Assembly (NCBI RefSeq): GCF_900155685.1
Contig: NZ_LT732548.1
Location: 461,232 to 525,231 of the forward strand
Direction of reading: 5' to 3'
Origin: Paenibacillus bouchesdurhonensis
Lineage (GTDB): Bacteria; Bacillota; Bacilli; Paenibacillales; Paenibacillaceae
Length of the DNA: 64,000 nucleotides
A program made the position numbers and the translations under genes. Below, one piece after another: positions 46,944 to 62,080 of the stretch (the stretch's first letter is position 1; each line of letters opens with the position of its first letter). The notes under the pieces are model-generated. The model was not told the DNA's origin, did no database searches, and worked only from the letters and a program-made list of their open reading frames with translations.

Positions 46944-46972
46944 TTGAAATATGGCCGGGGTATATGTACTAT
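46944..46972 (+). promoter_or_regulatory. Promoter of the interrupted ychF gene
   Basis: TTGAAA (46944-46949) and TACTAT (46967-46972) are 17 bp apart. They lie about 50 bp before the ychF start codon, which has GAGGAG as its ribosome site. The host promoter is therefore intact at the prophage border. Confidence 0.65.
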
Positions 46973-47026
46973 GATTGAAGAAGATAAGAAGCTGAGCAAT
47001 TACTATAATGAGGAGTTGTCATTCAT

Positions 47027-47071
47027 ATGGCTTTAAAAGCAGGGATCGTAGGTTTGCCGACGTTCTCGTGA
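47027..47071 (+). pseudogene. ychF: 5' fragment of ychF interrupted by the prophage
   Basis: ATG 47027 begins MALKAGIVGLP, the invariant start of the ribosome-binding ATPase YchF (next residues should be NVGKST). After the Pro codon the sequence changes, giving T-F-S-stop at 47071. Everything from the P-loop on is absent. A ribosome site and a promoter lie upstream, so a 14-codon peptide would be made. The rest of the gene should lie beyond the right end of the prophage. Confidence 0.85.
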
Positions 47072-47075
47072 GAGA
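47050..47075. other. Left prophage attachment junction (attL)
   Basis: Host sequence GTAGGTTTGCCGA would be followed by ACGTCGG in an intact ychF; here it continues CGTTCTCGTGAG. The crossover is thus at about 47056-47063. The recombinase gene ends only about 15 bases further on, the usual layout next to an att site. The exact core cannot be fixed without attR. Confidence 0.75.
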
Positions 47076-47079
47076 TAAA

Positions 47080-48546
47080 TCAACCAAGCCAAGTAACGAC
47101 AACTTCCTCCCCGTTCATTATCTCTATCTTATCAATCAGTTTTCTTATGGATTGCTTAACCACCAATCTATCCTCAGAAGTTATATATTTCTTTTCTTTC
47201 TTCGCCTTGTGGATAACTCTTTCTTCCTTCTTTTCTTGCCCGTTATTCGGAACTTCAAGCATGCACTCCAGTTCTCTTCGCTCTCCCTGGACTCTTTCAG
47301 TTGCAATTTTTAGGTCATGTGCAGTTATTAGATCATCATTGTATGCGTCTATTTGTTTCTGCATTTTTTTGTCCAACTTAGCAAGTTTCGATTTTATTAT
47401 ATTTATATCCAGTGTTTTCTCTTTTGTTTCCGAAATAAGAATTTTCAGTTTTCCGGGCGCTGATTCGGATAGAGATATTATTTCATTCACTATCAAAGTC
47501 TCTAGCATATCCCTTTTTACATAATGATGATAACAATTACTTTTTTTAAGGTATCCGTCACATAAATATTGATAGTGTATATTTTCTTTCTGATTTCTTT
47601 TGGAATAACTTCTATTCATTTTGCCATTCATTTTATTTCCGCAATGCCCGCAAACGACTAGACCAGATAAAAGGTAACGATCATTGCTCATGTGTTTACC
47701 CACTGTTTTTCTACTTTGAAACAAAGCCTGTAGCCTTTCGAATGTGTCTCTGTCTAGTATAGCTGGATGATTGTCTTCTATCCTTATCCATTCCTCTTCT
47801 GGCCTTGTTATTACCTTCGTGCCTTCCTTATATGTTTTGTTGTAAACAAAATCTCCAACTAGTGTTTCTCTTTGGAACAATTCTCTAAATGTTTTGTCGC
47901 TCCATTCGTTTCCATCTTTTGTTTTTACACCTTCGACCATATTCCAATTTTGTATTATTCTCCTTGATGGAATTCCGGATATCAAGTCTGCCGCGGCTTT
48001 CTTTATCAATAATGATTCCTCTATGTTAAACACCATTTCACCATGCTTAACATCATAGCCAAAACACGGCCTCGTTATAATCTTCTTATTATTCTTTATA
48101 TTTCTAGCTATTGACAACATGTTATCACGCACACGTTCTGAAGTACGTTCACGTTCGAATTCCGCCACCATACCAAGCATCTGCAATACTAATCTGCCGG
48201 CTGGGGTAGATGTATCAAATCCTTCTGTGGCAGATACGAAGTTGTAATTATGTTTATTGAAATATTCATTAAGAGACAGTATGTCAAACAGTTTCCTTGA
48301 CAACCTATCTAGTTTTGTAGTGAGAACGATACCTCCCTCGGCATTCTTTTTAACATAGTCTAACATTCTTGTTATTTCTGGACGATTTAAATTTTTTGCG
48401 CTATATCCATCCTCAATGAAAAAAATGGGTTCATCCCAACCCATAGCTTTGCAGTAAGCAGTCATCCTTTCCATTTGTTCGGTCAGTGAATTTCCTTTTT
48501 CCGCCTGTTCCTCTGTACTCACTCTTGGATAACCCAATACCCTCAT
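47080..48546 (-). CDS. Large serine recombinase (phage integrase)
   Basis: 488 residues. The N-terminal resolvase domain has the nucleophile Ser10 (GYPRVSTEEQ) and the arginines in 'TTKLDRLSRKLFD' and 'FERERTSERVRDNM'. A recombinase domain follows, then the zinc ribbon (VVCGHCGNK...YLCDGYLKKSNC) and a C-terminal coiled-coil rich region. Large serine integrases recombine short attP and attB sites without host factors; excision needs a directionality factor, not yet identified here. Pro7 replaces the usual Cys or Ala before RVS. AGAGGTGA is 9 bases upstream of the ATG. The 3' end points at attL. Confidence 0.95.
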   Translation of the reverse strand: MRVLGYPRVSTEEQAEKGNSLTEQMERMTAYCKAMGWDEPIFFIEDGYSAKNLNRPEITRMLDYVKKNAEGGIVLTTKLDRLSRKLFDILSLNEYFNKHNYNFVSATEGFDTSTPAGRLVLQMLGMVAEFERERTSERVRDNMLSIARNIKNNKKIITRPCFGYDVKHGEMVFNIEESLLIKKAAADLISGIPSRRIIQNWNMVEGVKTKDGNEWSDKTFRELFQRETLVGDFVYNKTYKEGTKVITRPEEEWIRIEDNHPAILDRDTFERLQALFQSRKTVGKHMSNDRYLLSGLVVCGHCGNKMNGKMNRSYSKRNQKENIHYQYLCDGYLKKSNCYHHYVKRDMLETLIVNEIISLSESAPGKLKILISETKEKTLDINIIKSKLAKLDKKMQKQIDAYNDDLITAHDLKIATERVQGERRELECMLEVPNNGQEKKEERVIHKAKKEKKYITSEDRLVVKQSIRKLIDKIEIMNGEEVVVTWLG

Positions 48547-48561
48547 TTTAAAATGTCACCT

Positions 48562-49215
48562 CTATTTGTAGAATGGTTTGAAATGTCCCATGTAGACACC
48601 ATAAATTGCGAATTCACTTGGGAGTAACTCGCGTGTTTCATAATCGCTGTTTTCTGGAATCAACTTCATAGTCGGGGAACCTTCTGTCCACTTTATTCTT
48701 TTTAGCATTCCGTCCTCTTGGTCATTGATGGCCGCGACTACAATCTGCCCGTTGAAATCAGCCCAGTTAGTTTTCTTAATATAAACTATATCCCCGTCAT
48801 CGATGCCAGCGCCAACCATACTATCTCCCTTTACTTTAAGGGCGAAATCAGGTTGCGATTTACCTAGTAAAGGATATAAAACATATTCAATAATGTTTTG
48901 TTCGGCAAGCAAACCATCACCAGCACATATCGTCCCAACTAAAGGGATCATAGCTTTCTCTGTTTGATCGCTTGATTTAAATGTTGGATCAATCTCCGCC
49001 TTACTAACCATTAGAAAGTCTGCCATTCTCTGGATACTTCCGGGTGTCGCTAGTGTTTTTTCATTTATATAATCTGATATAACGCTTGTGGATAGACCAG
49101 TTCCTTCTGCCAATTCTTTTTGGCTCATGCCTTTCCTCTTTAAAACTGATCTTAAATTCAATGCAATACCTTTAATTAATTCTTTTTCAACCTCAGTATA
49201 TTTTTTTCTCGCCAC
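48562..49215 (-). CDS. Phage repressor, CI/LexA-like (XRE HTH plus S24 peptidase)
   Basis: 217 residues from GTG 49215, which follows GGGAGG; an upstream in-frame TTG at 49239 has no site. The N-terminal XRE helix-turn-helix is SQKELAEGTGLSTSVISDYI. The C-terminal S24 domain has the cleavage site Ala98-Gly99 (ICAGDG), catalytic Ser132 (GDSMVGAG) and Lys172 (GMLKRIKW). It should repress the early promoter and self-cleave with RecA during the SOS response. It lies 15 bases upstream of the recombinase gene on the same strand. Confidence 0.93.
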   Translation of the reverse strand: MARKKYTEVEKELIKGIALNLRSVLKRKGMSQKELAEGTGLSTSVISDYINEKTLATPGSIQRMADFLMVSKAEIDPTFKSSDQTEKAMIPLVGTICAGDGLLAEQNIIEYVLYPLLGKSQPDFALKVKGDSMVGAGIDDGDIVYIKKTNWADFNGQIVVAAINDQEDGMLKRIKWTEGSPTMKLIPENSDYETRELLPSEFAIYGVYMGHFKPFYK

Positions 49216-49267
49216 TTTATTTTTCCTCCCAAATATCAACTTTTCTAACTAAAGTATGTATATATCC

Positions 49268-49296
49268 GTTATAAACTAATTTCACTTTGATTTCAA
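49268..49296 (-). promoter_or_regulatory. Leftward promoter of the repressor gene
   Basis: On the minus strand, TTGAAA (49296-49291), 17 bp, then TATAAC (49273-49268). The -10 region runs into CGGATA, a half-operator-like sequence, which would permit autoregulation. Confidence 0.7.
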
Positions 49297-49305
49297 GTAG
49301 AAAAT

Positions 49306-49320
49306 TACGTTAAAAACGTA
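49306..49320. promoter_or_regulatory. Perfect palindrome TACGTT-AAA-AACGTA
   Basis: A 6-3-6 inverted repeat directly abuts the -35 box of the early promoter and lies between the two divergent promoters. It differs from the CI-type repeat at 49326, so it may bind the Cro-like protein or another regulator. Confidence 0.6.
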
Positions 49321-49349
49321 TTGACAATCCGATATTAACGGATTATTAT
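49321..49349 (+). promoter_or_regulatory. Early rightward promoter with operator in the spacer
   Basis: TTGACA (49321-49326) and TATTAT (49344-49349) are 17 bp apart. The inverted repeat AATCCGATATTAACGGATT (49326-49344) covers the whole spacer. The same 19 bases occur again inside the cro-like gene at 49573. Confidence 0.82.
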
Positions 49350-49379
49350 GATCATAACAAACGAAAAAGAGGTGAAATC

Positions 49380-49616
49380 ATGTTCCAAATCACACTCAGA
49401 GCAGCGAGGGTTAATAAAGGTTACACCCTAGAGTATGTGGCTGAAATCGTGGGTAAAACATCGAAAACCATAGCTAAGTATGAGAAAGACTCTACAAACA
49501 TTCCAAGAAGATTGTTTGTAACTCTGGCTAGGTTGTATGGTGTTCCCGAAGAAATGATTTTTTGCGGCAAGGAATCCGATATTAACGGATTTGCTAGAAA
49601 AACAAAAGTATCGTGA
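49380..49616 (+). CDS. Cro-like XRE family regulator
   Basis: 78 residues. The helix-turn-helix is TLEYVAEIVGKTSKTIAKYE, with 'IPRRLFVTLARLYGVPEEMI' after it. AGAGGTG precedes the ATG. It is the first gene of the early operon, opposite CI, the usual position of Cro. Its 3' end (codons for ESDINGF) contains the exact operator repeat, so the DNA has a regulatory as well as a coding role. Confidence 0.88.
   Translation: MFQITLRAARVNKGYTLEYVAEIVGKTSKTIAKYEKDSTNIPRRLFVTLARLYGVPEEMIFCGKESDINGFARKTKVS
49573..49591. promoter_or_regulatory. Second copy of the 19-bp operator, inside cro
   Basis: AATCCGATATTAACGGATT is identical to 49326-49344. Its centre is 247 bp downstream of the first copy. A distant intragenic operator could allow CI looping or a roadblock, as with the downstream operator of lactococcal phage TP901-1. 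Confidence 0.8.
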
Positions 49617-49626
49617 GGTGCAAAAA

Positions 49627-49779
49627 ATGGGGAAAACTCTACGAATTGTAAAGAACATCGTCATTGACAACAGAGGGAACGTAGTTGGCGATGACCCTCG
49701 CAAGTTCTCCACGATCACCAATCGATGCAAAGAAGTTTCGGCTTACTTGGAAACAGGTAAGTTGCACAAGGTTGTATAG
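49627..49779 (+). CDS. Small phage early protein
   Basis: 50 residues, basic and soluble, with no family recognised ('NIVIDNRGNVVGDDPRKFSTI'). GTGAGGTG precedes ATG 49627. It is 10 bases after cro and 15 bases before the antirepressor gene. Confidence 0.6.
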   Translation: MGKTLRIVKNIVIDNRGNVVGDDPRKFSTITNRCKEVSAYLETGKLHKVV

Positions 49780-49794
49780 AAAGGAGTAACCAAA

Positions 49795-50553
49795 ATGAAC
49801 CAAACGCAAATATTTAACCATCCACTGTTCGGAGAAATTAGAGCAATTGAATTAAATAGCAAACCGTATTTTGTTGGAAATGATATTGCCAGAGCGCTTC
49901 ATTATGCGAGACCACATGAGGCTGTGTCGTCACACTGCAAGGTGGCGGTAGGTTACCGCATCCTTACTAATGGCGGGGAACAAGCAACTAAGATCATCCC
50001 CGAAGGAGACGTATACCGCCTAATTGTTAAAGCAGCAGATCAATCACGAAATCCCGAAATCAAAGCAAAGGCAGAACAATTTGAGAAATGGCTATTTGAC
50101 GAAGTGATTCCAACGATACGGCAACACGGCGCTTACCTCACACCATCCAAGATCGAAGAGGTACTACTCAATCCAGACACAATCATCGACCTGGCTACAC
50201 AGTTAAAAGCAGCTAGGGAAGAGAATGAGAAGCAGAAACCACTCGTAGCATTTGCAGAAATTTGCCTACAGTCTAGCGACTCAATAAAGGTTAGAGACTT
50301 GGCGCACTCGCTTAGTAGTCATGGTATTACAATCGGTCAAAACAGACTCTTTGAAAAGTTACGGGAGTGGGGTTTGATTAGTCAGAAATCCACGGAACCG
50401 ACACAGCGGGCAGTTGAGCAAGGACTGTTTGAGGTTGTCACCGGGGTAAAGCAGAAGCCTAGCGGAGAGCCGTTTACATGGCGCACACCTTACGTAACAG
50501 TTAAAGGCCAAGTTTATGTAACGGATCGCCTGAGAAAAGAAATGATTGCTTAG
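49795..50553 (+). CDS. Phage antirepressor (BRO-N plus KilAC domains)
   Basis: 252 residues. The BRO-N domain covers about residues 1-110 (NQTQIFNHPLFGEIRAIEL, 'FVGNDIARALHYARPHEAV', 'FEKWLFDEVIPTIRQHGAY'). The C-terminal KilAC/ANT domain has 'IKVRDLAHSLSSHGITIGQNRLFEKLREWGLI'. Such proteins counteract repressors or control lytic entry. AAAGGAG precedes the ATG. Confidence 0.9.
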   Translation: MNQTQIFNHPLFGEIRAIELNSKPYFVGNDIARALHYARPHEAVSSHCKVAVGYRILTNGGEQATKIIPEGDVYRLIVKAADQSRNPEIKAKAEQFEKWLFDEVIPTIRQHGAYLTPSKIEEVLLNPDTIIDLATQLKAAREENEKQKPLVAFAEICLQSSDSIKVRDLAHSLSSHGITIGQNRLFEKLREWGLISQKSTEPTQRAVEQGLFEVVTGVKQKPSGEPFTWRTPYVTVKGQVYVTDRLRKEMIA

Positions 50554-50566
50554 AAAGGAGTAGCCC

Positions 50567-50749
50567 ATGAACCAAGACCCACGATCCAAACGGATTAGCA
50601 GAATTGAAATAGCTATACTCATCGCCTTTACTCTTGTAATCGCGGTAAACGCTTGGACGGCAATCGACAAGTACAAGCTCAATAAACGGTATGAGAAGTC
50701 CATAGAGCAGTTGGAAAGCTTTGAACAAGAACTTAATAGGAAGGAGTGA
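50567..50749 (+). CDS. Small single-span membrane protein, phage early region
   Basis: 60 residues. A membrane helix at about 15-32 (IAILIAFTLVIAVNAW) is followed by a charged helix that may form a coiled coil (YEKSIEQLESFEQEL). AAAGGAG precedes the ATG. No family recognised. Confidence 0.65.
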   Translation: MNQDPRSKRISRIEIAILIAFTLVIAVNAWTAIDKYKLNKRYEKSIEQLESFEQELNRKE

Positions 50750-50753
50750 GGAA

Positions 50754-51125
50754 GTGAGCCAACCTAAAAAAGGAACGTGGGCTGTGGACTATGGCAAGGT
50801 CAACCTTAAAAGCTTGATCATAACCAACGATCCTGAATTATACGAAAAACAGAAGGCCAAAGGAGAAGTAGCAGTGTTGTTTGAGCCTTCTGTACTTGAA
50901 GAGATGAAAGCGGGGCAAGGAGTTGTTTACTTAGTGGGGGTGAATGAAATGAACCAATTAACAGAGGATCGTGTAAGGGAGATTGTGCGGGAGGAAATGG
51001 AAAAGGAAGCTACCGCAGTAACGATAGCTCCAGTCTTTTCGGCTGATGTCTGTAGGGATGAAATTGCAAAGCAACTTGAAGAGGCTATTTCAAAAGCTAC
51101 TGCTCGGACGAATGCAATCTCTTGA
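50754..51125 (+). CDS. Hypothetical phage early protein
   Basis: 123 residues from GTG 50754, which follows AAGGAG by 7 bases and the previous stop by 4. The first half is mixed alpha/beta and the second a charged helix with LTEDRVREIVREEMEKEA. No family recognised. The 3' end overlaps the opposite-strand gene at 51097 by 29 bases. Confidence 0.65.
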   Translation: MSQPKKGTWAVDYGKVNLKSLIITNDPELYEKQKAKGEVAVLFEPSVLEEMKAGQGVVYLVGVNEMNQLTEDRVREIVREEMEKEATAVTIAPVFSADVCRDEIAKQLEEAISKATARTNAIS

Positions 51126-51324
51126 TTAACTCGATCGTGAATTTCTGGTTTTGTTCCAGAAGTGATACTGACAATGAACCAAGGAGAGTACCGAGTTTAC
51201 TATTGAAACCTTCATCTAGTTCGTTAATTTCTGCAACAGCACTTTGTAAATCTTCGTGAATAGTTTTCAAGGCTTGAAGATTTAACTCTGCTGCGATTTT
51301 ATCAATGTCATTAATATTCAACAT
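51097..51324 (-). CDS. Small coiled-coil protein encoded against the early operon
   Basis: 75 residues and almost wholly helical (IDKIAAELNLQALKTIHEDL, then 'SVSLLEQNQKFTIELIKRL'). GGGAGGTG lies 2-3 bases before the ATG on the minus strand, a convincing site although tightly spaced. It is the only leftward gene between cro and the right edge, so it needs its own promoter and could be expressed in the lysogen. Function unknown. Confidence 0.65.
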   Translation of the reverse strand: MLNINDIDKIAAELNLQALKTIHEDLQSAVAEINELDEGFNSKLGTLLGSLSVSLLEQNQKFTIELIKRLHSSEQ

Positions 51325-51392
51325 TACACCTCCCTTCTATTTCCAATATTCGACAGGGAGCGCACAAATCCTATACGGAAAGGAATGATTAT

Positions 51393-52136
51393 GTGAATCA
51401 ATTACAAAACAAAACCACGATTAGCAGCTTGGAAGTAGCTGAAATGATGGAGATTAAACACTATCAGGTTCTTGAAAAGTTAGAAGGTACCAAAACAATC
51501 AAGGGGATCATCCCTACAATGACTGACCATAAAATTATGGTGAGTGAATATTTCATCGAATCCAGTTATACAGATGCAAGCGGTCGATCTAACAAGTGTT
51601 ATGAGCTTACTAAAATGGGATGTGAGTTTCTGGCGAATAAGTACACCGGAGAAAAGGGGATTCTGTTCACCGCCAAGTATGTTAAGCGATTTAACGAAAT
51701 GGAAGAAGCCCAAGCGGTTAGTCTTACAGGCTTAAGCCCGCAGCTTCAAATCCTTATCCAACAAGAACAACAGATAAAGCAAATCAAAACACAGGTTGAC
51801 ACATTAACTAATGGCTTAACCGCTACACCGGATCATACAAAAGTGGTGCAGCGAGTAAATGAGTACGCCAGATGGACAAGGACAGGGCATAACGAAGTTT
51901 ACAACAAAATCCATGACGTTATGAAAGCTCGTTTTGGGATCGACGTAAAAGCACGAGTCGAGAATGAACGCGACAGAATCAATCATGAATACTTCGAACG
52001 CACAGGGAAGCATTACAGCCTGTCTACGTTAAAGGGCAAAGTGAACGGAATTGACGTTATGGTTCGCATGGGTGTGTTGGACAAGTTTAACGAAATCTTG
52101 GTCGGCATGCTGGCAACAGTGAAGAAAATTAGCTAG
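51393..52136 (+). CDS. Rha-type phage regulatory protein with ORF6C-like C-terminal part
   Basis: 247 residues. The N-terminal Rha/pRha domain has TISSLEVAEMMEIKHYQVL, 'YFIESSYTDASGRSNKCYELTKMGCEFLANKYTGEKG'. A coiled coil and a C-terminal domain with 'YARWTRTGHNEVYNKIHDVM' follow. Rha proteins regulate phage development, often as antirepressors. GTG start with AAAGGAATG upstream. It is the second regulator of this class in the operon. Confidence 0.85.
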   Translation: MNQLQNKTTISSLEVAEMMEIKHYQVLEKLEGTKTIKGIIPTMTDHKIMVSEYFIESSYTDASGRSNKCYELTKMGCEFLANKYTGEKGILFTAKYVKRFNEMEEAQAVSLTGLSPQLQILIQQEQQIKQIKTQVDTLTNGLTATPDHTKVVQRVNEYARWTRTGHNEVYNKIHDVMKARFGIDVKARVENERDRINHEYFERTGKHYSLSTLKGKVNGIDVMVRMGVLDKFNEILVGMLATVKKIS

Positions 52137-52149
52137 GGAGGTATAGGCC

Positions 52150-52314
52150 ATGAGACCAGATGCAGCGGAAATTTTAAGAGTCACTTTTCAAAACTTACTA
52201 GATCGTAAGGTCACCCCGGAGCTAATGCAAGACTTCATAGACCGCTCACGGCGCTACCACACCGGGAAAGATGAACTGCTTGCAGTGTTGGACGAGCTAG
52301 AAAAACAAATCTAA
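52150..52314 (+). CDS. Small phage protein, 54 residues
   Basis: MRPDAAEILRVTFQNLLDRK starts an acidic helical protein. It has a clear site (TAGGGAGG) ahead of the ATG, 13 bases after the Rha gene and 22 before the next gene. No family recognised. Confidence 0.65.
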   Translation: MRPDAAEILRVTFQNLLDRKVTPELMQDFIDRSRRYHTGKDELLAVLDELEKQI

Positions 52315-52336
52315 ATCAAATTAGGAGGAATATCAA

Positions 52337-53191
52337 ATGACAGTTAAAGGATGGAAAGGTTTCGACAAAGATTTGAAATGTCGCGATATGCAATATGAGG
52401 TAGGCAAAACATTCGAAGAACCGGAAGCGGTCGCTTGTAGTGAAGGGCTTCACTTTTGCGAGAATCCACTAGATGTATTTGGTTATTACCCACCTGCTGA
52501 TAGTAGATACGCCGAGGTTGAGGGCGATGGTCAGTTATCCCGTGACGGTGACGATAGCAAAGTAGCGGCGACACGTTTACACATTAAAGCAGAGATTGGG
52601 CTTCCCGGACTTATAAAGGCTGGCGTCGATTATATCAAATCAAAAGTAGATTGGGACAATGCGAAAGAGTCCAACACAGGCAACCGTAGCGCAGCAACCA
52701 ACACAGGCGACTGTAGCGCAGCAACCAACACAGGCAACCAGAGCGCAGCAACCAACACAGGCAACCGTAGCGCAGCAACCAACACAGGCAACCGTAGCGC
52801 AGCAACCAACACAGGCAACCAGAGCGCAGCAACCAACACAGGCGACTGTAGCGCAGCAACCAACACAGGCGACTGTAGCGCAGCAACCAACACAGGCAAC
52901 CGTAGCGCAGCAACCAACACAGGCAACCAGAGCGCAGCAACCAACACAGGCAACCGTAGCGCAGCAAGTGTAGAGGGAAAAGAGTCTGTAGCGATGGCAA
53001 TTGGTTACGAAAGCAAGGCTAAAGGCGCTATGGGATGCTGGATCGTCCTGGCAGAGTGGGAAGAGGGTGACGAAGGATATCACATTACAGATGTGCAAAG
53101 CGCTCATGTCGATGGTGAGAGAATCAAGCCGGATACATGGTACATGCTTAAAAACGGTGAGTTTGTGGAGGTTGAGTCAAATGAAGATTAA
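52337..53191 (+). CDS. DUF7666-like phage protein with nonapeptide beta repeats
   Basis: 284 residues. The N-terminal domain (about 1-112) includes MTVKGWKGFDKDLKCRDMQY and 'CSEGLHFCENPLDVFGYY', a layout seen in phage DUF7666 proteins. Eleven repeats of N-T-G-(N/D)-(R/C/Q)-S-A-A-T follow, then a degenerate unit and a C-terminal 'ITDVQSAHVDGERIKPDTWY' cap. The repeats probably stack into a beta solenoid. The fourth and fifth repeat positions vary in three fixed pairs (NR, DC, NQ). Function unknown. A GGAGGA site precedes the ATG. Confidence 0.82.
   Translation: MTVKGWKGFDKDLKCRDMQYEVGKTFEEPEAVACSEGLHFCENPLDVFGYYPPADSRYAEVEGDGQLSRDGDDSKVAATRLHIKAEIGLPGLIKAGVDYIKSKVDWDNAKESNTGNRSAATNTGDCSAATNTGNQSAATNTGNRSAATNTGNRSAATNTGNQSAATNTGDCSAATNTGDCSAATNTGNRSAATNTGNQSAATNTGNRSAASVEGKESVAMAIGYESKAKGAMGCWIVLAEWEEGDEGYHITDVQSAHVDGERIKPDTWYMLKNGEFVEVESNED
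52673..52969 (+). repeat. Eleven tandem 27-bp repeats within the phage gene
   Basis: Units of 27 bp, nearly identical apart from codons 4-5 (AAC CGT, GAC TGT, AAC CAG), in the order NR DC NQ NR NR NQ DC DC NR NQ NR. Near identity of the DNA indicates recent expansion by slippage or recombination. All six frames stay open here, which produces spurious frames. Confidence 0.95.
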
Positions 53192-53285
53192 TGGAAAAGA
53201 ATGGTCGATCCTTCCGTTAGAAAAGAAACTCGCAGCAATCAGCAATGCAATTGATACAAACAAAACACCATACAAAAGGAAGTGA
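53181..53285 (+). CDS. Small phage protein, 34 residues
   Basis: ATG 53181 overlaps the end of the repeat-protein gene by 11 bases. GGAGGTTG lies 6-7 bases upstream. The product MKINGKEWSILPLEKKLAAI.. is basic with an amphipathic helix. No family recognised. Confidence 0.5.
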   Translation: MKINGKEWSILPLEKKLAAISNAIDTNKTPYKRK

Positions 53286-53289
53286 GGGC

Positions 53290-53502
53290 ATGAGCAACGT
53301 CAATCTATTTTCAATCCGCTTAAAAGGCCGTGAGTTGATCGTAGCGGACAGGCCCCGGGGCAACTTGATGATTTATCCACCGGGACACACCGCTCCGTCT
53401 ATCAAGGTACACAGCGTATTTGACATCATAGCCTTGCGAGATTTACTTAACGATGCGTTTCCACCGGAGGACTTTAGGTATGATCCAGTGCGCCGGGTGT
53501 GA
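53290..53502 (+). CDS. Small phage protein, 70 residues
   Basis: Starts MSNVNLFSIRLKGRELIVAD with GTGAGGG just upstream, and ends in a helix 'VHSVFDIIALRDLLNDAF'. Beta-rich first half. No family recognised. It overlaps the next gene by 23 bases. Confidence 0.6.
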   Translation: MSNVNLFSIRLKGRELIVADRPRGNLMIYPPGHTAPSIKVHSVFDIIALRDLLNDAFPPEDFRYDPVRRV

Positions 53503-53650
53503 GAGAGAAGCCTTGTATGAAGTCTACAAAGACATTAAGCAGCCGCACTGTTTGGAGCACATGTTAGAAGCTATTGATTGCAACGAATTTGTATATGTTA
53601 GGAGGTTGGATGAACTTGCAACTAAAAGTCAGGATCGCGGCGAAGGATGA
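53480..53650 (+). CDS. Small Cys/His phage protein (zinc-ribbon-like)
   Basis: 56 residues from ATG 53480 (CCGGAGG 9 bases upstream). MIQCAGCEREALYEV and 'HCLEHML' supply C-x2-C and H-C-x2-H, enough for one metal site. It overlaps both neighbours in other frames, which is typical of compact phage operons. Confidence 0.6.
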   Translation: MIQCAGCEREALYEVYKDIKQPHCLEHMLEAIDCNEFVYVRRLDELATKSQDRGEG

Positions 53651-53978
53651 TTTTGCGTCACGGTATGCGCTGGCGCTGGTAGGTGGTCGGTATGTAGACG
53701 GGAAGCATCCAAATTCGAGTTTCAGAACCACGCACACAGAGGCGATTATGACCGTGTGTTACGGAGATTGGAGGAAGAGAATGCAGCATCTAACAAAGGC
53801 GCTAACCGATCTAAAGCAGCTCCAAGAAGATATCCATTGCCAGTCGGTGGGACACGCCTTGTGCGCAATGGGAGAATTTATAACCCATGGCACCTTGGAT
53901 AGTGTTATAGCCAACTTGGAGACAGTGGAACAGGTGCTAGAAACGAAGAATGACCACGGTTGCCGCCGTGATCACTAA
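53610..53978 (+). CDS. Hypothetical phage protein, 122 residues
   Basis: Starts MNLQLKVRIAAKDDFASRYA after AGGAGGTTGG. The N-terminal part is alpha/beta and the C-terminal half helical ('LTKALTDLKQLQEDIHCQ'). No family recognised. It overlaps the previous gene by 41 bases. Confidence 0.6.
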   Translation: MNLQLKVRIAAKDDFASRYALALVGGRYVDGKHPNSSFRTTHTEAIMTVCYGDWRKRMQHLTKALTDLKQLQEDIHCQSVGHALCAMGEFITHGTLDSVIANLETVEQVLETKNDHGCRRDH

Positions 53979-54038
53979 GACACTTTCAAATAAATTGTTA
54001 CGGACACAATAACACAAAAATTAGGAGGTTGTAAAGCT

Positions 54039-54941
54039 ATGAGTTTTGATGATCATTCCCCGATTAATTATAACGACTATTTACCATCGGCACCAGAAGC
54101 CCGTTCTGTGGCTCATGAAATGGTGGCAACAAGGCAAAGTGAACAGGTAAAGGCAGCTCTATTTTCTGCTAAACAATTTCCGAGAGATCAGCAATTATCT
54201 TTTAACCGAATTATGCAAGCTTGTCAGCGGAAGAAGCTTGCGGAGGAAGCGGCATATGAGTATCCAAAGGGTGGAAGTAGAGTTTCGGGGCCTTCCATCC
54301 GCTTAGCCGAAGTTCTAGCGCAGAATTGGGGCAACATGGAGTATGGCGTGATTGAACTTGAGCAAGTTAACGGAGTTTCGAAGATGGAAGCCTACGCCTG
54401 GGATATTGAAACGAATACACGGCGTTCAATGATATTCAATGTAAAGCATGAACGGAAGGCCAAGGGGCGCATTGATAAATTAGACGATCCTCGTGACGTT
54501 TATGAGCTAACTGCCAACATGGGGGCGCGGCGTGTCCGTGCTTGCATCCTTGGAGTTATCCCTGGCGATATTGTCGATGCAGCTATGGAGCAGTGCAAAC
54601 AAACTCTCATCAATGGTTACGACGAGCCATTAGCAGATCGCGTAAGAAATGCGCTCCTTAAATTTCAAGAGAAATACGGAGTCACTAAGGAAATGGTTGA
54701 GGAGTTTTTGGGATGCAGTCAGGATTCGTTCACCGAAAACGACTATTTGCGACTGGGCGGCGTATGGAAGTCTCTAACGGACAACATGGCTAAACGAGAG
54801 GATTATTTCAACTTCGGCAAAGTTCATGTTGCTACGAATACAGAAGAAGAATTTATAAAGGCTCAGGCCGAAGCTGCTGAGAAAGTTAAAAAGGGCGGTG
54901 GTAAGGATGATCCTAAACAATCAGAATTACCACTCGACTGA
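54039..54941 (+). CDS. Putative phage recombination protein (candidate single-strand annealing protein)
   Basis: 300 residues. I cannot place it in RecT, Erf or Sak by eye. Features: a helical start with 'RQSEQVKAALFSAKQFPRDQ', a core 'YPKGGSRVSGPSIRLAEVLAQNWGNMEYGV' with an Arg/Lys-rich strand region 'RSMIFNVKHERKAKGRID', and an acidic tail ending [11 protein letters not shown], like SSB-interacting tails. It lies directly before a PD-(D/E)XK exonuclease and SSB, the RecE/RecT position. TTAGGAGG precedes the ATG. The role is inferred from order only. Confidence 0.6.
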   Translation: MSFDDHSPINYNDYLPSAPEARSVAHEMVATRQSEQVKAALFSAKQFPRDQQLSFNRIMQACQRKKLAEEAAYEYPKGGSRVSGPSIRLAEVLAQNWGNMEYGVIELEQVNGVSKMEAYAWDIETNTRRSMIFNVKHERKAKGRIDKLDDPRDVYELTANMGARRVRACILGVIPGDIVDAAMEQCKQTLINGYDEPLADRVRNALLKFQEKYGVTKEMVEEFLGCSQDSFTENDYLRLGGVWKSLTDNMAKREDYFNFGKVHVATNTEEEFIKAQAEAAEKVKKGGGKDDPKQSELPLD

Positions 54942-55707
54942 GGCGAATCAACATTACTGGTCAAACAGCCAATACAAAGAGTTCCTTGAATGCGAAGCGC
55001 GGGGCATGGCGAAGTTGCGAGGGTGGGCCGAACCACCTTCGGAAGCTTTGCTAGTCGGTTCTTATGTCCATGCGTACTTTGAAAGTAAAGAAGTATTCGA
55101 GCAATTCAAATCTGAAAATCCTGAAATCATAGCTTCTAAAGGTGCTAATAAGGGGAATTTGAAAAAGGAATTTCAGAGAGCAGATGAACTTATACGAACT
55201 ATTGAAAACGACCCACTATGCATGTTTGTCCTTCAAGGCCAAAAGGAAGTTATTTTAACGGCTGAATTTGCGGGGGCAAAGTGGAAAGTGAAAATGGACA
55301 ACTACGCACCGGATCGTAATAGGTTTTCGGACATTAAGACAGTACGAGAAATACAAAAAGAAACCTGGGATCCCAATAACGGCTATGTGACGTTTGTGGA
55401 GGCTAGTGGCTATGTAACCCAAATGGCACTCTACGCAGAGATTGAACGGCGTGTACAAGGGCGTGACGGATGGATAGAACCCATTATAGTAGCTGTTTCA
55501 AAGGAAGACCCACCAGACAAGGCTGTAATCTCTATTAATGGTTATGACATTCAACGGGAACTGGATTTGATAGAAATGAACATGCCTCGTTTGATAGAGG
55601 TTAAATCCGGACGAATTGAGCCCGACCGCTGCGAAAATTGCCGTTACTGTCGTGAGACAAAGACATTGAACAAAATCGTGCATTACACGGAACTTATCAA
55701 TCAATAG
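54907..55707 (+). CDS. PD-(D/E)XK exonuclease-like protein (RecE/DUF3799 type)
   Basis: About 266 residues. '[13 protein letters not shown]' (conserved His), '[14 protein letters not shown]' with the catalytic Asp, '[13 protein letters not shown]' for the D-x-K strand, then a Tyr-rich helix '[15 protein letters not shown]', follow the lambda-exo/RecB-like nuclease fold. Four Cys near the C terminus (CENCRYC) could bind metal or an iron-sulfur cluster. It processes double-strand ends for annealing. The start overlaps the previous gene by 35 bases; GTG 54898 is an alternative. Confidence 0.82.
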
Positions 55708-55718
55708 GAGGAATTCCA

Positions 55719-56129
55719 TTGCTTAATAGAGTGATCCTTATCGGGAGGTTAACCCGAGATCCTGAATTGAGATATACCCCTTCTGGTGTGGCTGTTACTC
55801 AGTTCACGATTGCCGTGGACAGACCGTTCACATCGCAGGGCGGAGAGCGAGAAGCGGATTTTATTCCGGTCGTAACTTGGAGACAACTGGCTGAGACGTG
55901 CGCGAATTACTTGCGTAAGGGTCGCCTCACAGCTGTTGAAGGACGCATTCAGGTACGGAATTACGAGAATAGCGAGGGTAAGCGCGTATACGTGACAGAG
56001 GTCATTGCTGATAACGTGCGTTTCCTGGAATCGAACCGGGACGACAAACGAAGTGGCGGGCAAAGTGAACGGGATCCATTCGCAGACGATGGTAAACCGA
56101 TCGATATACCGGATGATATGCCTTTCTAG
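55719..56129 (+). CDS. ssb: Phage single-stranded DNA-binding protein
   Basis: 136 residues. OB-fold start [20 protein letters not shown], then '[11 protein letters not shown]', '[23 protein letters not shown]' and the acidic tip DIPDDMPF that recruits partner enzymes. The start is a TTG with AGGAGG 6 bases upstream. It coats ssDNA in phage replication and recombination. Confidence 0.95.
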
Positions 56130-56144
56130 GAGAGGGGTGATCAT

Positions 56145-56564
56145 ATGTTTGACTTTGGTCTCAACTCATATTCCAAAGAACAGCAATTAGGTAGGCGGCG
56201 CGAATCTAAAACGCCTTTGCGAGACCGGAAGCAGAATAAAAACGAGGACAAGGAGCTTACAAAGGAACAGGTACGGGCAGTGGTAAAGAAGCGCGACGGG
56301 AATTGGTGCTTGCTTAGCGGCAAGCCCGGCCCCGGACTACATTTGCACCGGGTTAAATATAGCGGCATGGGCGGAGGTGGTGGCAAGTACGAGGTTTGGA
56401 ACTGTGTGCTGCTATCCACTCAAATGCACGATTTGGTGCATTCCAATAAGAAATACTGGATGCCGCGGCTACTAATCTATTTGCAAAATATGAAAGATGG
56501 CAAAGACACAAGCAAAATTTTGAGCGAGTTACGGAATAAAGCGACTGAGCGGGTGGTGACATGA
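56145..56564 (+). CDS. HNH-type nuclease-like phage protein
   Basis: 139 residues. 'VKKRDGNWCLLSG', 'LHLHRVKYSGMG', 'NCVLLSTQMHDLVHSNKKYW' match the order of an HNH/ββα-metal fold (His-His, Asn, His). Only some zinc-finger Cys are kept. It may nick or cut DNA in recombination; its position between ssb and the initiator fits many siphoviruses. GGAGAGGGG precedes the ATG. Confidence 0.78.
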   Translation: MFDFGLNSYSKEQQLGRRRESKTPLRDRKQNKNEDKELTKEQVRAVVKKRDGNWCLLSGKPGPGLHLHRVKYSGMGGGGGKYEVWNCVLLSTQMHDLVHSNKKYWMPRLLIYLQNMKDGKDTSKILSELRNKATERVVT

Positions 56565-57403
56565 AAGAAGCTTACTACTTTTCGCATGACAGCAATGCGC
56601 GACACGATCCAAAGATTACCGCGATGCGTGGCGTGTATGGTTCGGAAGGTTACGGCTGGTACTGGATGCTAGTTGAAATGATGCGAGAATCCCAAGGCTA
56701 CAAGCTAGATATGCATTCGAAATACACTTTTAATGCATTTGCATTGCAATTGCAGACTGATAGCACAAAGGTTGAACAATTTGTGCATGATTGCATACAT
56801 GAATTTGAACTGTTTGAAGCAGATGAAACACATTTTTGGAGCGCCTCATTACTTCGCAGAATGGATATTCGAGAGCAATTATCTGAGGCGCGCCGAAAGG
56901 CCGCTAAAGCTAGATGGAACAAGGGAAAGCAGCCAACTAGTGATGGTGAAGAAAATGCAGAAGGTATGCAAATGCATAGCAATAGCAGTGCTAATGGAAT
57001 GCAAGGAAAGGAAAGTAAATTAAATAAAAGTAAAAGAAAAGAAAGTAATAAAGATATATATACGCCTGAATTTGAATCTTTCTGGACTGAATATCCTCGC
57101 AAGATAGAAAAACAAGATGCAGCAAAGACATTCAACAAAATAGTCAAAGAAGGCGAAGACCACGCTGTCATTATTCAATGCGCTAAGAATTACAAGGCAG
57201 AATGCAAGCGACTTAAAACAGAACAGCGATATATAAAACATGCCAAGACCTTTTTGAATGAGGGAAGATACAAAGATTACCTGGAAGGAGGGGCCGGGGT
57301 TGGAGAGCTTCAAAGAAGTGATGAAGGGGTTCAATCTGGAGGATATCAGGAAGAGAGCGAGTTTGATTTCCTCGACCGCCAAAACAGAACAGGCACCCAT
57401 TGA
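56561..57403 (+). CDS. Phage replication initiator-like protein (DUF4373/DnaD-like)
   Basis: 280 residues. The N-terminal Lin1244-type domain has 'FSHDSNARHDPKITAMRGVYGSEGYGWYWMLVEMM', a linker rich in Lys/Ser follows, and the C-terminal part 'FESFWTEYPRKIEKQDAAKTFNKIVKEG' resembles replisome organisers. It probably binds the phage origin and recruits the loader encoded next. It overlaps the HNH gene by 4 bases and the loader gene by 104 bases. Confidence 0.82.
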   Translation: MKEAYYFSHDSNARHDPKITAMRGVYGSEGYGWYWMLVEMMRESQGYKLDMHSKYTFNAFALQLQTDSTKVEQFVHDCIHEFELFEADETHFWSASLLRRMDIREQLSEARRKAAKARWNKGKQPTSDGEENAEGMQMHSNSSANGMQGKESKLNKSKRKESNKDIYTPEFESFWTEYPRKIEKQDAAKTFNKIVKEGEDHAVIIQCAKNYKAECKRLKTEQRYIKHAKTFLNEGRYKDYLEGGAGVGELQRSDEGVQSGGYQEESEFDFLDRQNRTGTH

Positions 57404-58097
57404 TTACAAATGCAAGATATGCCGGGATGAAGAGGTCGTGTTAAAACGGCGTGAGGATGGATCGGAATATGCGATGGATTGCGAGTGTAAAAAGGAACGC
57501 CGGGCTGAACGCCTGATGAAGTCTAGCAAGATAACGTCAAAATTCCAATCTAGGACATTTAACAGTTTCAAGCTAGATGGCAGACCGGAGACCGTGAAGC
57601 AAGCGTATGAAGCAGCTTGGAATTACGTTAAGGGGTATCCGAAGCGAGAGGAAAAAGGGAGCGTCGCCTTGCTTGGTCGCCCCGGATGTGGAAAAACACA
57701 TCTTCTCATGGCGATATCAAACAACTTGATTTCAAAAGGAGTGGGCGTGATTTACTTCCCTTGGGTCGAGGGGTTCAACGAGCTTCGCAACAATCTGGAT
57801 TCTCTTGACGATAGAATCCGGGTTCTGCAACAAGCGGACGTGCTTTTCCTGGATGATCTTTTCAAAGGACAAGACAACACTCCTGAAAAGCGGCCTACTA
57901 GATTCCAACTTGAACAGCTATTCGCAATTATCAATTATCGCTATCTAGAAGATAAGCCTATCCTGATCAGTTCGGAAAAGACTATATCGCAGTTATGCCA
58001 AATGGACGAAGCGATAGGCAGCCGCATAAACGAAATGTGTCGAGACTACAAAGTAACCCTAACAGGTGGAATAGAGCTAAATTACAGACTGCAATAG
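57300..58097 (+). CDS. DnaC-like helicase loader (AAA+ ATPase)
   Basis: 265 residues. A Cys cluster (CKICRDEEVV, CECK) near residues 37-60 is followed by an AAA+ domain: Walker A GRPGCGKTHL, Walker B VLFLDDLFKG, sensor 'ILISSEKT'. It loads the replicative helicase. TTG 57300 follows GGAGGGG; this puts the first 104 bases inside the initiator gene in another frame. An open frame back to 57258 has no ribosome site. Confidence 0.88.
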   Translation: MESFKEVMKGFNLEDIRKRASLISSTAKTEQAPIDYKCKICRDEEVVLKRREDGSEYAMDCECKKERRAERLMKSSKITSKFQSRTFNSFKLDGRPETVKQAYEAAWNYVKGYPKREEKGSVALLGRPGCGKTHLLMAISNNLISKGVGVIYFPWVEGFNELRNNLDSLDDRIRVLQQADVLFLDDLFKGQDNTPEKRPTRFQLEQLFAIINYRYLEDKPILISSEKTISQLCQMDEAIGSRINEMCRDYKVTLTGGIELNYRLQ

Positions 58098-58106
58098 GAG
58101 GTAACC

Positions 58107-58346
58107 ATGGAACACATTGACGATTACGAATTGTTCGACAAGGACTTTGCGGAATTTGTTCGCCGGGGACGGGAAGCATTTGGATTTGATGCGGAAGAAG
58201 TAGCCCAGGACACAAGTCGGAGCTGGGATGAACGGATAAGAGCTACAGCAGAGATATTGCATAAAGAGAGGGGTGCGGAAATTGCCTACAGGTTACAGGA
58301 TGGAAACACAGTTCGTATCCCGAAGGAAAATTTACTTAGCCTGTGA
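58107..58346 (+). CDS. Small acidic phage protein, 79 residues
   Basis: MEHIDDYELFDKDFAEFVRR with TAGGAGG upstream. Helical, acidic, no family recognised. It overlaps the next gene by 47 bases. Confidence 0.6.
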   Translation: MEHIDDYELFDKDFAEFVRRGREAFGFDAEEVAQDTSRSWDERIRATAEILHKERGAEIAYRLQDGNTVRIPKENLLSL

Positions 58347-58539
58347 AGAACTAAATTTTGTTTGGGACAGGACGGAGGTTAGCAATTTCCGCAACATGTG
58401 GGATGACGGGAAAAGTATACGCCAAATAGCCGAGGTCTTAGGTCGAGACCCAGACGAGGTTTTGATACTGGCAATAGATCAATCGAAGCGTGATCTGATA
58501 CAACCACGAGACGGCGGATTACTAGGAAGAATGGCGTAA
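58300..58539 (+). CDS. Small HTH-like phage protein, 79 residues
   Basis: The segment NMWDDGKSIRQIAEVLGRDP resembles a helix-turn-helix of sigma/resolvase type. The probable start at ATG 58300 has only a weak AGG-rich site; the frame is open to 58273. Late-gene or origin regulator is a guess. Confidence 0.55.
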   Translation: METQFVSRRKIYLACEELNFVWDRTEVSNFRNMWDDGKSIRQIAEVLGRDPDEVLILAIDQSKRDLIQPRDGGLLGRMA

Positions 58540-58554
58540 AGGGAGGGCGAGGAC

Positions 58555-58743
58555 ATGAACCGTTGTAAGATGCCGAAGTGCAGAGGGGTTGCAACGAAAA
58601 CATGGGCGATGATGGGTTTGTGTAAACAGTGTCATGCGGATATCAAGAAAGAAACGAACTTATTCTATAGCGGAAAGATTCTGGCAAATGATCGGGTTTT
58701 TCATAAGAAATTGCAGATGGCAAAAGGGGAGAGGATTGTATGA
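58555..58743 (+). CDS. Small Cys-rich phage protein (zinc-finger-like)
   Basis: 62 residues. MNRCKMPKCRGVATKT with C-x4-C and later CKQCH give a four-ligand metal site. GGGAGGGCGAGG lies upstream. It overlaps the resolvase gene by 4 bases (ATGA). Confidence 0.65.
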   Translation: MNRCKMPKCRGVATKTWAMMGLCKQCHADIKKETNLFYSGKILANDRVFHKKLQMAKGERIV

Positions 58744-59288
58744 CACGTTTTGTAGGGATAGACCCGAGTACAAATACCGGGGTTGTGGAGTTAGATGCAC
58801 TAGGCAACGTTATTCGCGAGGAAGAGATCACACTCGAAACCGGAATGCACTCGACAGTAGCTGAGATAAGGAAATACGGAAAAGAGATAGTTAACTATTT
58901 AGAGCAAGATAGCCTAGTTTGCGTGGAAGGCTTCTCCTTCAACTCCAAAGGGCAAGCGGTTAGCACGCAATACGGAATCGGATATGCGATTAGGTTTGCA
59001 TTGATCGAGCGTGGGATGGTTTGGATCGAGCCAACACCGAGCCAAGTCAAAAAGTATGCAACGGGCAAAGGGAATGCTCACAAAAGCGAGATGATTTTAC
59101 CCTTGTATAAACGGTGGGGATACGAGCATAAGTCAGACAACGTGCGAGACGCATTTATTTTAGCTCAGATCGCACGGGCGGTGCGAATGGACACAGCAGA
59201 TACTAAACAGCAGAAAGAGGTTGTAAAAGCCATCCTAGAGCCTCAGGAAACGAAAGAAAAATCGAAGAAATCTAAGAAGGCGGTGTAA
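58740..59288 (+). CDS. RuvC-like Holliday junction resolvase
   Basis: 182 residues. RNase H-like fold with the first catalytic Asp in FVGIDPSTNTGVV, Glu in 'LVCVEGFSFNSKG', and the last acidic pair in 'KSDNVRDAFILAQIA'. 'PTPSQVKKYATGKGNAHKSEM' is typical of RuvC. It resolves recombination and replication branches before packaging. The C-terminal tail is Lys-rich. Confidence 0.9.
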   Translation: MTRFVGIDPSTNTGVVELDALGNVIREEEITLETGMHSTVAEIRKYGKEIVNYLEQDSLVCVEGFSFNSKGQAVSTQYGIGYAIRFALIERGMVWIEPTPSQVKKYATGKGNAHKSEMILPLYKRWGYEHKSDNVRDAFILAQIARAVRMDTADTKQQKEVVKAILEPQETKEKSKKSKKAV

Positions 59289-59291
59289 AGC

Positions 59292-59513
59292 ATGCAGATG
59301 GTTATAAGATTTCTCGTTTGCTTGGGTTTAGCCTTAATACCAGTAAGTTTCTACATGTTCGTGTTGGGCGTGTTTTTGAATAAGGAATCGGCGGTGATTG
59401 CTGGGATGAATGTAGTAATTGGAATTATGTCAATTGCTCTCATTCCAATGTACAAGGCAGAGGCGAAGAACATCTGGCGAAATATCAAACGTAACTTTTG
59501 GAAAGGGAGATAA
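59292..59513 (+). CDS. Small two-span membrane protein, phage
   Basis: 73 residues with helices at about 4-28 and 34-53, then a basic tail (NIWRNIKRNFWKGR). No family recognised. It could be a membrane anchor or superinfection-exclusion factor, but nothing in the sequence proves it. Confidence 0.6.
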   Translation: MQMVIRFLVCLGLALIPVSFYMFVLGVFLNKESAVIAGMNVVIGIMSIALIPMYKAEAKNIWRNIKRNFWKGR

Positions 59514-59515
59514 AC

Positions 59516-60058
59516 ATGGACATTGTAAAACTATACAACATGCAAAGAGAACTAGACGAGAGGATTATAAAGCAACACGGGCTGGAAGGGCAGGACTTAT
59601 TGCCGCAAAAGATTCTAGCGTTGCAAGTGGAGCTAGGAGAATGCGCAAATGAATGGCGAGGTTTCAAGTATTGGAGTAAAGACCAGCAGCCGCGATATAT
59701 AAAAAATTCAATTGCATTCGCCAATCCCGGAGGTCCATTTGAATACACAACCTACCCACTCCTAGAAGAATACATTGATTGCCTACACTTCATTTTGTCG
59801 ATTGGCATTGAAATTGGAATCGATATTTATGAATTCGGATTTGTAGCAGTGGTGGACGCAACAACTACCGATACATTTCTCTCAGTTTTTGAAAAGATAA
59901 GCGAATTTTCTTACACCCCTGACTCTTGGAATTATGAGGGGATGTTCAATAGCTTCGCTGGACTTGGTAAAATGCTTGGCTTCACTTGGGAACAGATCGA
60001 AGAGGCATACATGAGCAAAAATTCGGAAAATCATAGGAGGCAAGACAATGGGTATTGA
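59516..60058 (+). CDS. dUTP diphosphatase, dimeric (MazG-like fold)
   Basis: 180 residues. 'MQRELDERIIKQHGLEGQDL' opens the all-alpha dUTPase; 'ALQVELGECANEWRGFKYW' carries the E-x2-E metal ligands and 'LLEEYIDCLHFILSIGIE' the E-x2-D pair. It removes dUTP and supplies dUMP during replication. GGGAGATAAAC precedes ATG 59516. The last residues, HRRQDNGY, reappear at the end of the next gene. Confidence 0.9.
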   Translation: MDIVKLYNMQRELDERIIKQHGLEGQDLLPQKILALQVELGECANEWRGFKYWSKDQQPRYIKNSIAFANPGGPFEYTTYPLLEEYIDCLHFILSIGIEIGIDIYEFGFVAVVDATTTDTFLSVFEKISEFSYTPDSWNYEGMFNSFAGLGKMLGFTWEQIEEAYMSKNSENHRRQDNGY

Positions 60059-60698
60059 GAGGCCAATATATATATGTCAATGCGGTTGCGATGAGGAAAT
60101 ACCTTATTCACCAAGACATCAATATCCATCAAAAAAGCCTAAATATAAAGTCGGTCATTTTCATCGTAATAAGTTTTTTCTAAATCGAAATACAATCGAA
60201 AATGAATACAAAAAGGCTGGAAGTGGGGCGAAGTTGGCGGAGAAATATGGTATTACTCCAGTCGCAGTTTACAACATGCTGAGGAAAATAAAAGCTTCAA
60301 CCATACCTAAGGAAGAGCTTGCTGAACCAAAACAAAGGACAGGTAGGTATTGGGAATTGAAATGTCTTGATTTTTTGGAAGGGGCCGAGGATTTTTCAGG
60401 AATGGACTGGCGATCTCCATTCGATTTGATATTTAACGGATATAGAGTGAATGTAAAAGTCTCTAACCCAGTAAATCAAGGAAAAACATGGACATTTAAT
60501 ACAAGATCAAAACAACAGATAGATTACTTTTTGTGTATTGGGCTTAACGAAAGTGGAGAAGTCGAAAAGTTGTATTGGATACCATCTGACAAGGCGAAAA
60601 AACAAACAACTATCAGACGTGGTTCAAAAACCAAATATGACGAATATGCAACAACATTTGAATTATTAAACCACAAACGCCAAGACACAGGATATTAA
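60048..60698 (+). CDS. Putative PD-(D/E)XK homing-type nuclease with HTH
   Basis: 216 residues. The N-terminal part has a Cys/His start ('CQCGCDEEI') and an HTH-like 'GAKLAEKYGITPVAVYNMLRK'. The C-terminal domain 'GRYWELKCLDFL', 'SPFDLIFNGYRVNVKVS' matches E...D...(V)xK of restriction-type folds. It begins within the last codons of the dUTPase gene and ends in HKRQDTGY, nearly the dUTPase tail HRRQDNGY. The AT-rich composition fits a freestanding mobile nuclease. GGAGGCAAGAC precedes the ATG. Confidence 0.65.
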   Translation: MGIERPIYICQCGCDEEIPYSPRHQYPSKKPKYKVGHFHRNKFFLNRNTIENEYKKAGSGAKLAEKYGITPVAVYNMLRKIKASTIPKEELAEPKQRTGRYWELKCLDFLEGAEDFSGMDWRSPFDLIFNGYRVNVKVSNPVNQGKTWTFNTRSKQQIDYFLCIGLNESGEVEKLYWIPSDKAKKQTTIRRGSKTKYDEYATTFELLNHKRQDTGY

Positions 60699-60856
60699 TA
60701 ACACGCCGTCTGAGCGCCAAGAACGCTGATTCTAGCGACTTACAGATCGAATGAGTATAAATGGAAGGGTAGAGACTTAGAGGGGCTTAAACAAGCTCCC
60801 AGGACGCGCGCAAATGTAAAGCTGAGTTTTCGGGGAAGAATAGGAGGTTGAAAAAG
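60699..60856. other. 158-bp structured gap after the nuclease gene
   Basis: The only sizeable gap in this part of the operon. It contains the hairpins CGCT-GATTCT-AGCG and GGGGCTT-AAAC-AAGCTCC. No reading frame and no T run are seen. It could be part of the inserted element or a small RNA. Confidence 0.45.
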
Positions 60857-61705: not shown

Positions 61706-61717
61706 GGAGGACTGAGC

Positions 61718-62069: not shown

Positions 62070-62080
62070 GAGGGATACCC

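Follow-up and report, generated by a model that had tools for sequence, protein, structure and literature searches.

A serine-integrase prophage within the 5' coding end of ychF in Paenibacillus bouchesdurhonensis appears to supply the gene with a new in-frame start

Results

The left junction and the prophage

The window (the whole stretch of DNA analyzed, 64,000 nucleotides, G000:C7:461232-525231) contains a point at which host DNA gives way to phage DNA inside the start of ychF (Table 1). The interrupted frame, which is preceded by a GAGGAG ribosome site, reads M A L K A G I V G L P T F S stop, with its ATG at 47027-47029 and its TGA, codon 15, at 47069-47071. The host gene upstream of it is presumably CbiQ-like (the T subunit of an ECF transporter). 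Our reading of the window agrees with the preliminary description of the locus, in which a host promoter-like site, a ribosome site and MALKAGIVGLP run into phage DNA, with the qualification that the promoter hexamers, taken alone, are no better than shuffled sequence (1 site found, against a mean of 0.9 with sd 1.0). A ychF match was present in 39 of 39 genus genomes, and in 28 of 28 non-lysogen loci of the genus that were examined (L042-L070 minus L062) the gene begins with an unbroken MALKAGIVGLPNVGK. This comparison with uninterrupted genes therefore confirms that the abrupt change of sequence at the stub is a real insertion.

Table 1. Features of the left junction and adjoining prophage (window coordinates)
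Feature	Position	Strand	Basis
Host gene upstream of the stub, 275 aa	46077..46904	+	ORF; similar 275-aa ORF immediately before the unbroken ychF of L042
Native ychF promoter-like site, TTGAAA-17-TACTAT	46944..46972	+	Identical hexamers and spacing ahead of the P. oralis stub
Left-over ychF 5' stub, MALKAGIVGLPTFS plus stop	47027..47071	+	Direct reading of the window
ATCGTAGGTTTGCCGA, 16 bp common to attL and attR	47045..47060	+	Both junctions read
Probable crossover dinucleotide GG (bases 1 and 2 of codon 9)	47051..47052	+	Analogy with P. oralis and the Fux382 MAG
Left part of the prophage	47053..64000	.	Runs past the window to C7:552835
Large serine recombinase (integrase), 488 aa	47080..48546	-	Resolvase, Recombinase and Zn_ribbon_recom domains; phrog_95 integrase, E 2.1e-106
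HTH and S24-peptidase (CI/LexA-like) phage repressor, 225 aa	48562..49239	-	Domain and PHROGs matches

The stub stop and the 3' end of the integrase gene are eight bases apart. The large serine recombinase reported earlier beside the junction was borne out, as its product carries all three diagnostic parts of that class, i.e., the Resolvase catalytic domain, the recombinase domain and the zinc ribbon. The native ychF promoter-like site is now severed from ychF and directed at the 3' end of this integrase gene, and a search of 46850-47300 showed no terminator-like site. Transcription from the orphaned host promoter at attL might, in addition to the effects discussed below, read into the integrase 3' end and damp integrase expression in the lysogen, a proposal that follows from this arrangement of sites and that we consider unlikely.

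The prophage measures 44,553 bp between the two inferred crossover points, and its left part has a G+C content of 0.431, lower than the 0.524 of the left host flank. A PHROGs scan of 20 phage proteins identified terminase subunits, portal, major head protein, tail terminator, tape measure, amidase/endolysin, anti-repressor, repressor and integrase, with no match of any kind for 4 of the 20; the terminase, portal, major head protein, tape measure and amidase/endolysin genes lie in the part of the prophage outside the window. These gene modules point to a temperate siphovirus-like phage. One prophage protein (window 52337-53191) contains many tandem SAATNTGN/SAATNTGD repeats. In addition, a CRISPR-like array of five ~32-nt repeats was observed just downstream of ychF (L005:2977-3274, G000:C7 about 554287-554584). 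Self-targeting of the prophage by this array was considered and rejected: the best matches of its 4 spacers covered 19-22 of 32-38 positions, which was taken as chance without a shuffle control.

The right junction and the rebuilt ychF

The right end of the prophage lies beyond the window, ~44.5 kb from the left junction, and there the DNA continues with the VGKST of ychF. It reads AAGGGGTTGTTAATAT-ATG-CCACTCTCTTGTGGTATCGTAGG-TTTGCCGAACGTTGGAAAATC, which translates as MPLSCGIVGLPNVGKS and then onward to the end of the protein. The resulting full ychF (C7:552811-553911, with the start ATGCCACTCTCTTGTGGTATCGTAGG) encodes 366 aa and is stop-free inside; the ribosome site, the ATG and the initial codons all come from the right end, and the frame is continuous into ychF. 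The rebuilt protein scored 531.5 bits against TIGR00092 (cut-off 279.2, profile positions 1-368), with the match spanning C7:552811-553908. Because a search of the genome with this profile gave 4 matches, of which 1 exceeded the curated cut-off, a second full ychF was not found elsewhere in the genome. In the right arm of this prophage, no terminator-like site was found between the last phage gene and ychF.

The empty-site relative L042 carries a 275-aa gene followed by an intact ychF, and this ychF is identical to the right flank at 974 of 1075 bases; the left host flank matched L042 at 153 of 202 positions in an ungapped comparison. The rebuilt YchF begins with MPLSC, the native type being MALKA, and would differ from the native type in its first five residues alone. 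The cysteine of MPLSC occupies a place at which the solved YchF structure 1jal also has cysteine.

Both junctions support the earlier proposal that the 5' end of ychF is the attB of a serine-integrase prophage. The left junction, by itself, would also suggest a gene-breaking switch, in which the prophage inactivates ychF and excision in response to a host signal turns the gene on, like the switches in comK, sigK and spsM. This was how the locus had been described, with the P-loop and all later parts of ychF lost. The right end argues otherwise. With the prophage in place, it carries an uninterrupted ychF reading frame that has a start and a ribosome site of its own, and for the coding frame the broken-gene model is refuted at the sequence level. 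As judged from the DNA, ychF is intact in the lysogen at the coding level, with a leader and start codon supplied by the phage.

The crossover point

Large serine recombinases use a two-base crossover core. In the window, the exact exchange point is masked by the 16-mer common to attL and attR; therefore, the earlier placement of the insertion after codon 11 counted bases that merely look like host sequence, and while an insertion in ychF was correctly recognized, the crossover is better assigned to codon 9. This assignment was made by analogy with two related lysogens. In P. oralis, attL reads TGTGGGT and attR TGTAGGC, with TGTGGGC in L069, its nearest uninterrupted relative in the ychF gene-body tree; in the Fux382 MAG, attL reads GTGGGAC and attR GTCGGTC, with GTGGGTC in its nearest relative, L066. 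L069 and L066 serve here as stand-ins for the host sequence. In both lysogens the host base stands to the left of GG in attL and to the right of GG in attR, so the exchange took place within GG if these relatives represent the host. We infer the same GG for the window, which is consistent with the shared 16-bp stretch; its right partner is at G000:C7:552835-552836, outside the window. By window numbering the GG falls in codon 9; the rebuilt P. oralis protein lacks one codon, so that there it is codon 8. The ychF junctions as a whole fall within codons 7-12.

Related integrases, lysogens and unsplit attP sites

Searches for related integrases covered 40 genus genomes, 392 order genomes, genome contigs (27 loci) and viral contigs (19 loci). 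Seven distinct integrases, the window's included, were 61-100% identical to the window integrase. A readable MALKAGIVGLP stub stands beside four of them (window, P. oralis, the Paenibacillus MAG Fux382 and the IMG/VR locus L117); in P. macquariensis a contig end cuts the site at the core and the remaining sequence reads GLPTFP, and the IMG/VR records L116 and L118 are trimmed ahead of the site. All four readable right ends are in frame, with the starts MPLSC (window), MPLSC (Fux382 MAG), MSLSC (P. macquariensis) and MLSC (P. oralis). P. oralis has attL and attR on one contig. The other two related lysogens, P. macquariensis and the Fux382 MAG, each have them on two different contigs, so that one continuous prophage was not seen there. 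The P. macquariensis contig L090 (NZ_FTNK01000048.1) ends exactly at the core GG, which could reflect the presence of excised and integrated forms together in the DNA.

A pattern scan of viral contigs found two unsplit attP sites, in IMG/VR contigs L157 and L158, whose integrases are 51% identical to that of the window. In both, a small gene precedes the leader, the ATG and LSCGIVGLPN, and the integrase comes next, encoded on the opposite strand; the ychF-type start is in frame in each. The ychF start is therefore carried by the phage and not created by integration. By analogy with these two contigs, the attP of the window phage should read as an unbroken MPLSCGIVGLPTFS. That the frame is kept at every readable right end and in both unsplit attP sites, despite the divergence of the arms, further opposes a gene-breaking switch, which we regard as very improbable.

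The nine integrases (the seven together with L157 and L158) formed one clade with a FastTree support of 1.000, in a tree of 29 of the 31 sequences (L074 and L093 could not be extracted). Among 18 order-level matches, 16 had 47% identity or less, and a GIVGLP-like stub was absent from the loci of all 16, the contigs of L076 and L079 ending within 40 bases past the integrase. At least seven of these distant integrases end, by eye, inside a gene that we take to be manganese catalase-like. Two sister-group integrases, L084 and L086 (G272:C1:5651964-5653391 and 5688447-5689874), have equal scores and zero tree distance and lie ~36 kb apart; the same ~32-base stretch follows both, and a longer target-gene end is present beside one of them. 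A cultured phage with the window integrase was not found, all 1268 matched records having less than 60% identity, the best of them near 34%. Separately, the ychF of one genus genome (G030:C1:5253728-5254826) gave two overlapping matches owing to a frameshift or sequencing error in mid-gene, apparently unrelated to a prophage.

The leader and promoter-like sites of the phage arm

The phage arms vary in sequence and by one codon in length, yet the frame is kept. TATAAT occurs 40-58 nt upstream of the conserved CTCTCTTG in 6 of 6 arms (4.3-8.7% of shuffles each), and TTG lies 16-18 nt above it in 5 of 6 (0.25-0.88% of shuffles each), Fux382 being the exception; the 40-58 nt slot was picked after inspection of the arms, so these percentages are flattering. 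In the right arm of the P. bouchesdurhonensis prophage taken alone, promoter-like sites were no more frequent than in shuffled sequence (3 sites, against a mean of 2.0 with sd 1.2). The leader motif GG[AG]GTTGT is present in 4 of 6 arms and missing from L157 and L158. It was found in 30 of 58 native ychF leaders compared to 1 of 930 ORF starts, counts that refer to stretches of 35 and 25 nt and to an ORF set that includes spurious and some doubled ORFs. The 58 leaders come from the 62 loci of L159-L220, from which L194, L195, L196 and L198, 600-base pieces without GIVGLP[NTI], were dropped.

The ychF-like frame could in principle be a by-product, if the integrase requires an attP resembling attB and the frame arises without selection on coding. 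The attP is indeed ychF-like also to the right of the crossover (GLPN, GLPT), in a part that is noncoding for YchF after integration. Against this, the arm retains a ribosome site as well as the ychF-type leader in most arms, and we judge the by-product explanation to be quite improbable.

The origin of the phage arm

The N-termini of ychF in the family are of two types, with 66 LKA and 32 LSC genes among 98 full-length genes; the LSC count takes in the four lysogens and another four genes (L153-L156) that had been selected by pattern. In a gene-body tree built without the N-terminal end, the four lysogens fall singly within LKA groups. The tree requires 10 changes of the LKA/LSC label, or 6 with the lysogens set to LKA, while shuffled labels average ~27 with a minimum of 19-20; the six remaining changes are therefore not due to these lysogens. 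Switching of the YchF N-terminus between LKA and LSC was also observed within genera (L153-L260). In one genus, the upstream DNA is common to the LKA genes and largely not to the LSC genes.

CTCTCTTG is identical in 6 of 6 phage arms, a count that is partly circular, since two arms were found by, and all were excised with, a pattern containing TCTCTTG. It occurred in 0 of 20 native LSC genes in a sample chosen without the pattern. Family-wide, 8 of 394 genomes match, namely the four lysogens and four others without sign of a prophage (G394, G483, G486 and G499, with the ychF start TCTCTTGYGG). These four were considered as lysogens and rejected, with an integrase relative at E 1e-30 in 0 of 4 in a search run without a positive-control genome. 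Only one base between ATG and TGC differs between G394 and G471, of the same genus, and together with the lack of integrase relatives in that search this makes natural variation a simpler reading than lysogeny; old integration scars could still lie behind these four starts.

Judged by these comparisons, the phage arm has the appearance of a ychF 5' end that was captured: it is of the LSC type, which is native to other genera, and it resides within LKA-type hosts. The conservation of CTCTCTTG fits a captured ychF start that is held by the integrase, and common phage descent could keep it as well.

Discussion

Altogether, our results favor, with a probability of about 0.9, a temperate phage of ~44.5 kb with a serine integrase that inserted at GG in codon 9 of ychF and whose double-use attP rebuilds a complete in-frame ychF. 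The DNA itself shows the two junctions and the reading frame, a single full-length ychF, and an in-frame start of this kind in the relatives. According to this model, the attP would have two uses, as the integrase site and as a 5' end for ychF, bringing a promoter-like element, a ribosome site, an ATG and the opening codons of an alternative YchF N-terminus. Integration would yield a 14-codon host stub at attL and, at attR, a complete in-frame ychF with MPLSC replacing MALKA. A promoter in the last 100 phage bases would probably drive ychF in the lysogen, and the YchF with the swapped N-terminus would be expected to function. Upon excision, the native leader and N-terminus would return. The preliminary suggestion that excision would switch YchF on is at odds with a lysogen in which ychF is complete and has a phage-supplied start: excision would exchange a leader and an N-terminus, not mend a broken gene, and it may alter the promoter strength and the first five residues.

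The model can be extended to regulation, if ychF is intact in both states and the difference between the two promoters lets lysogeny and spontaneous excision set the level of YchF. The phage exchanges the entire leader, and published cases, as far as the accessible parts of these reports go, lend the idea some support: the prophage of pneumococcal ST320 alters the -35 sequence of ychF, and its integration is reported to be accompanied by less ychF mRNA (PMC6375853), and an element in dusA brings a new promoter that was measured to be weaker (PMC8409611). Selection simply for harmlessness to the host would account for the same anatomy, and we hold such a regulatory role to be possible at somewhat less than even odds.

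A broader hypothesis concerns the whole phage clade. Its attP would be a captured ychF 5' end (the leader, start and first codons of LSC-type Paenibacillaceae), kept both as an integrase site and as coding sequence. Each lysogeny would then place a conserved ribosome-associated ATPase under a phage promoter and give it a foreign N-terminus, and past integrations may have spread LSC and LKA ends across the family. We offer this hypothesis tentatively and consider it somewhat unlikely to hold as a whole.

The locus illustrates that a left junction inside a gene does not prove loss of the gene, and a natural misreading is hereby corrected. It also provides a serine-integrase example of a phage that gives its host a new start for the gene that it splits. 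YchF has been tied to leaderless mRNA and to translation under stress in the available parts of the literature, and in these bacteria the level or the N-terminus of YchF may depend on lysogeny. The pneumococcal phages upstream of ychF hint either that control of ychF brings a benefit or that the site is just a safe one to occupy. Finally, since the attP arm is a recombination site and a gene start at once, it might serve for in-frame tagging.

Serine-integrase elements inside host genes include A118 in comK, skin in sigK and SP-beta in spsM, and these genes are broken while the element is integrated. The ychF prophage is likewise a serine-integrase element inside a host gene, but here the gene stays unbroken. 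The serine recombinase catalogue PMC10083194 does not mention ychF in the available main text. Titles and abstract beginnings of the open-licence literature yielded no published account of a serine-integrase prophage splitting ychF, and for ychF together with integrase and attB they yielded the pneumococcal cases alone. In Streptococcus pneumoniae, prophages are described just upstream of ychF in 19A ST320 (PMC6375853), in the group PPH005 (PMC8637289) and as the satellite PhiBM6001.4 (PMC10383233). In so far as the accessible text of these reports describes them, integration swaps the sequence ahead of ychF in those cases too, but their attB is intergenic, the coding sequence is untouched and the integrase of PPH005 is listed as a tyrosine integrase (PMC8637289). 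The use of ychF as an attB, described earlier as unusual, is thus less so in view of these published neighbors; the insertion within the coding part does set the present prophage apart.

The closest parallels to the anatomy described here are elements that replace the 5' end of their target gene. The original paper on one of them, SXT, is said to be that of Hochhut and Waldor from 1999. As described in the available parts of two reports, SXT in prfC and IMEVchUSA3 and other islands in dusA are such elements (PMC8409611, PMC4482086). They resemble the ychF prophage in that the insertion lies in the 5' end of a conserved housekeeping gene and an in-frame N-terminus comes from the element; insertion inside the 5' coding end and an in-frame start supplied by the element were both found here. 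The present case differs in its use of a large serine recombinase, in being a phage, in targeting ychF and in the small size of the replaced coding piece, 8-9 codons in addition to the leader. The replacement of a 5' end is thus already known; the present case is set apart by its serine integrase, by an insertion point inside the ychF coding sequence and by a double-use attP that is kept across a phage clade.
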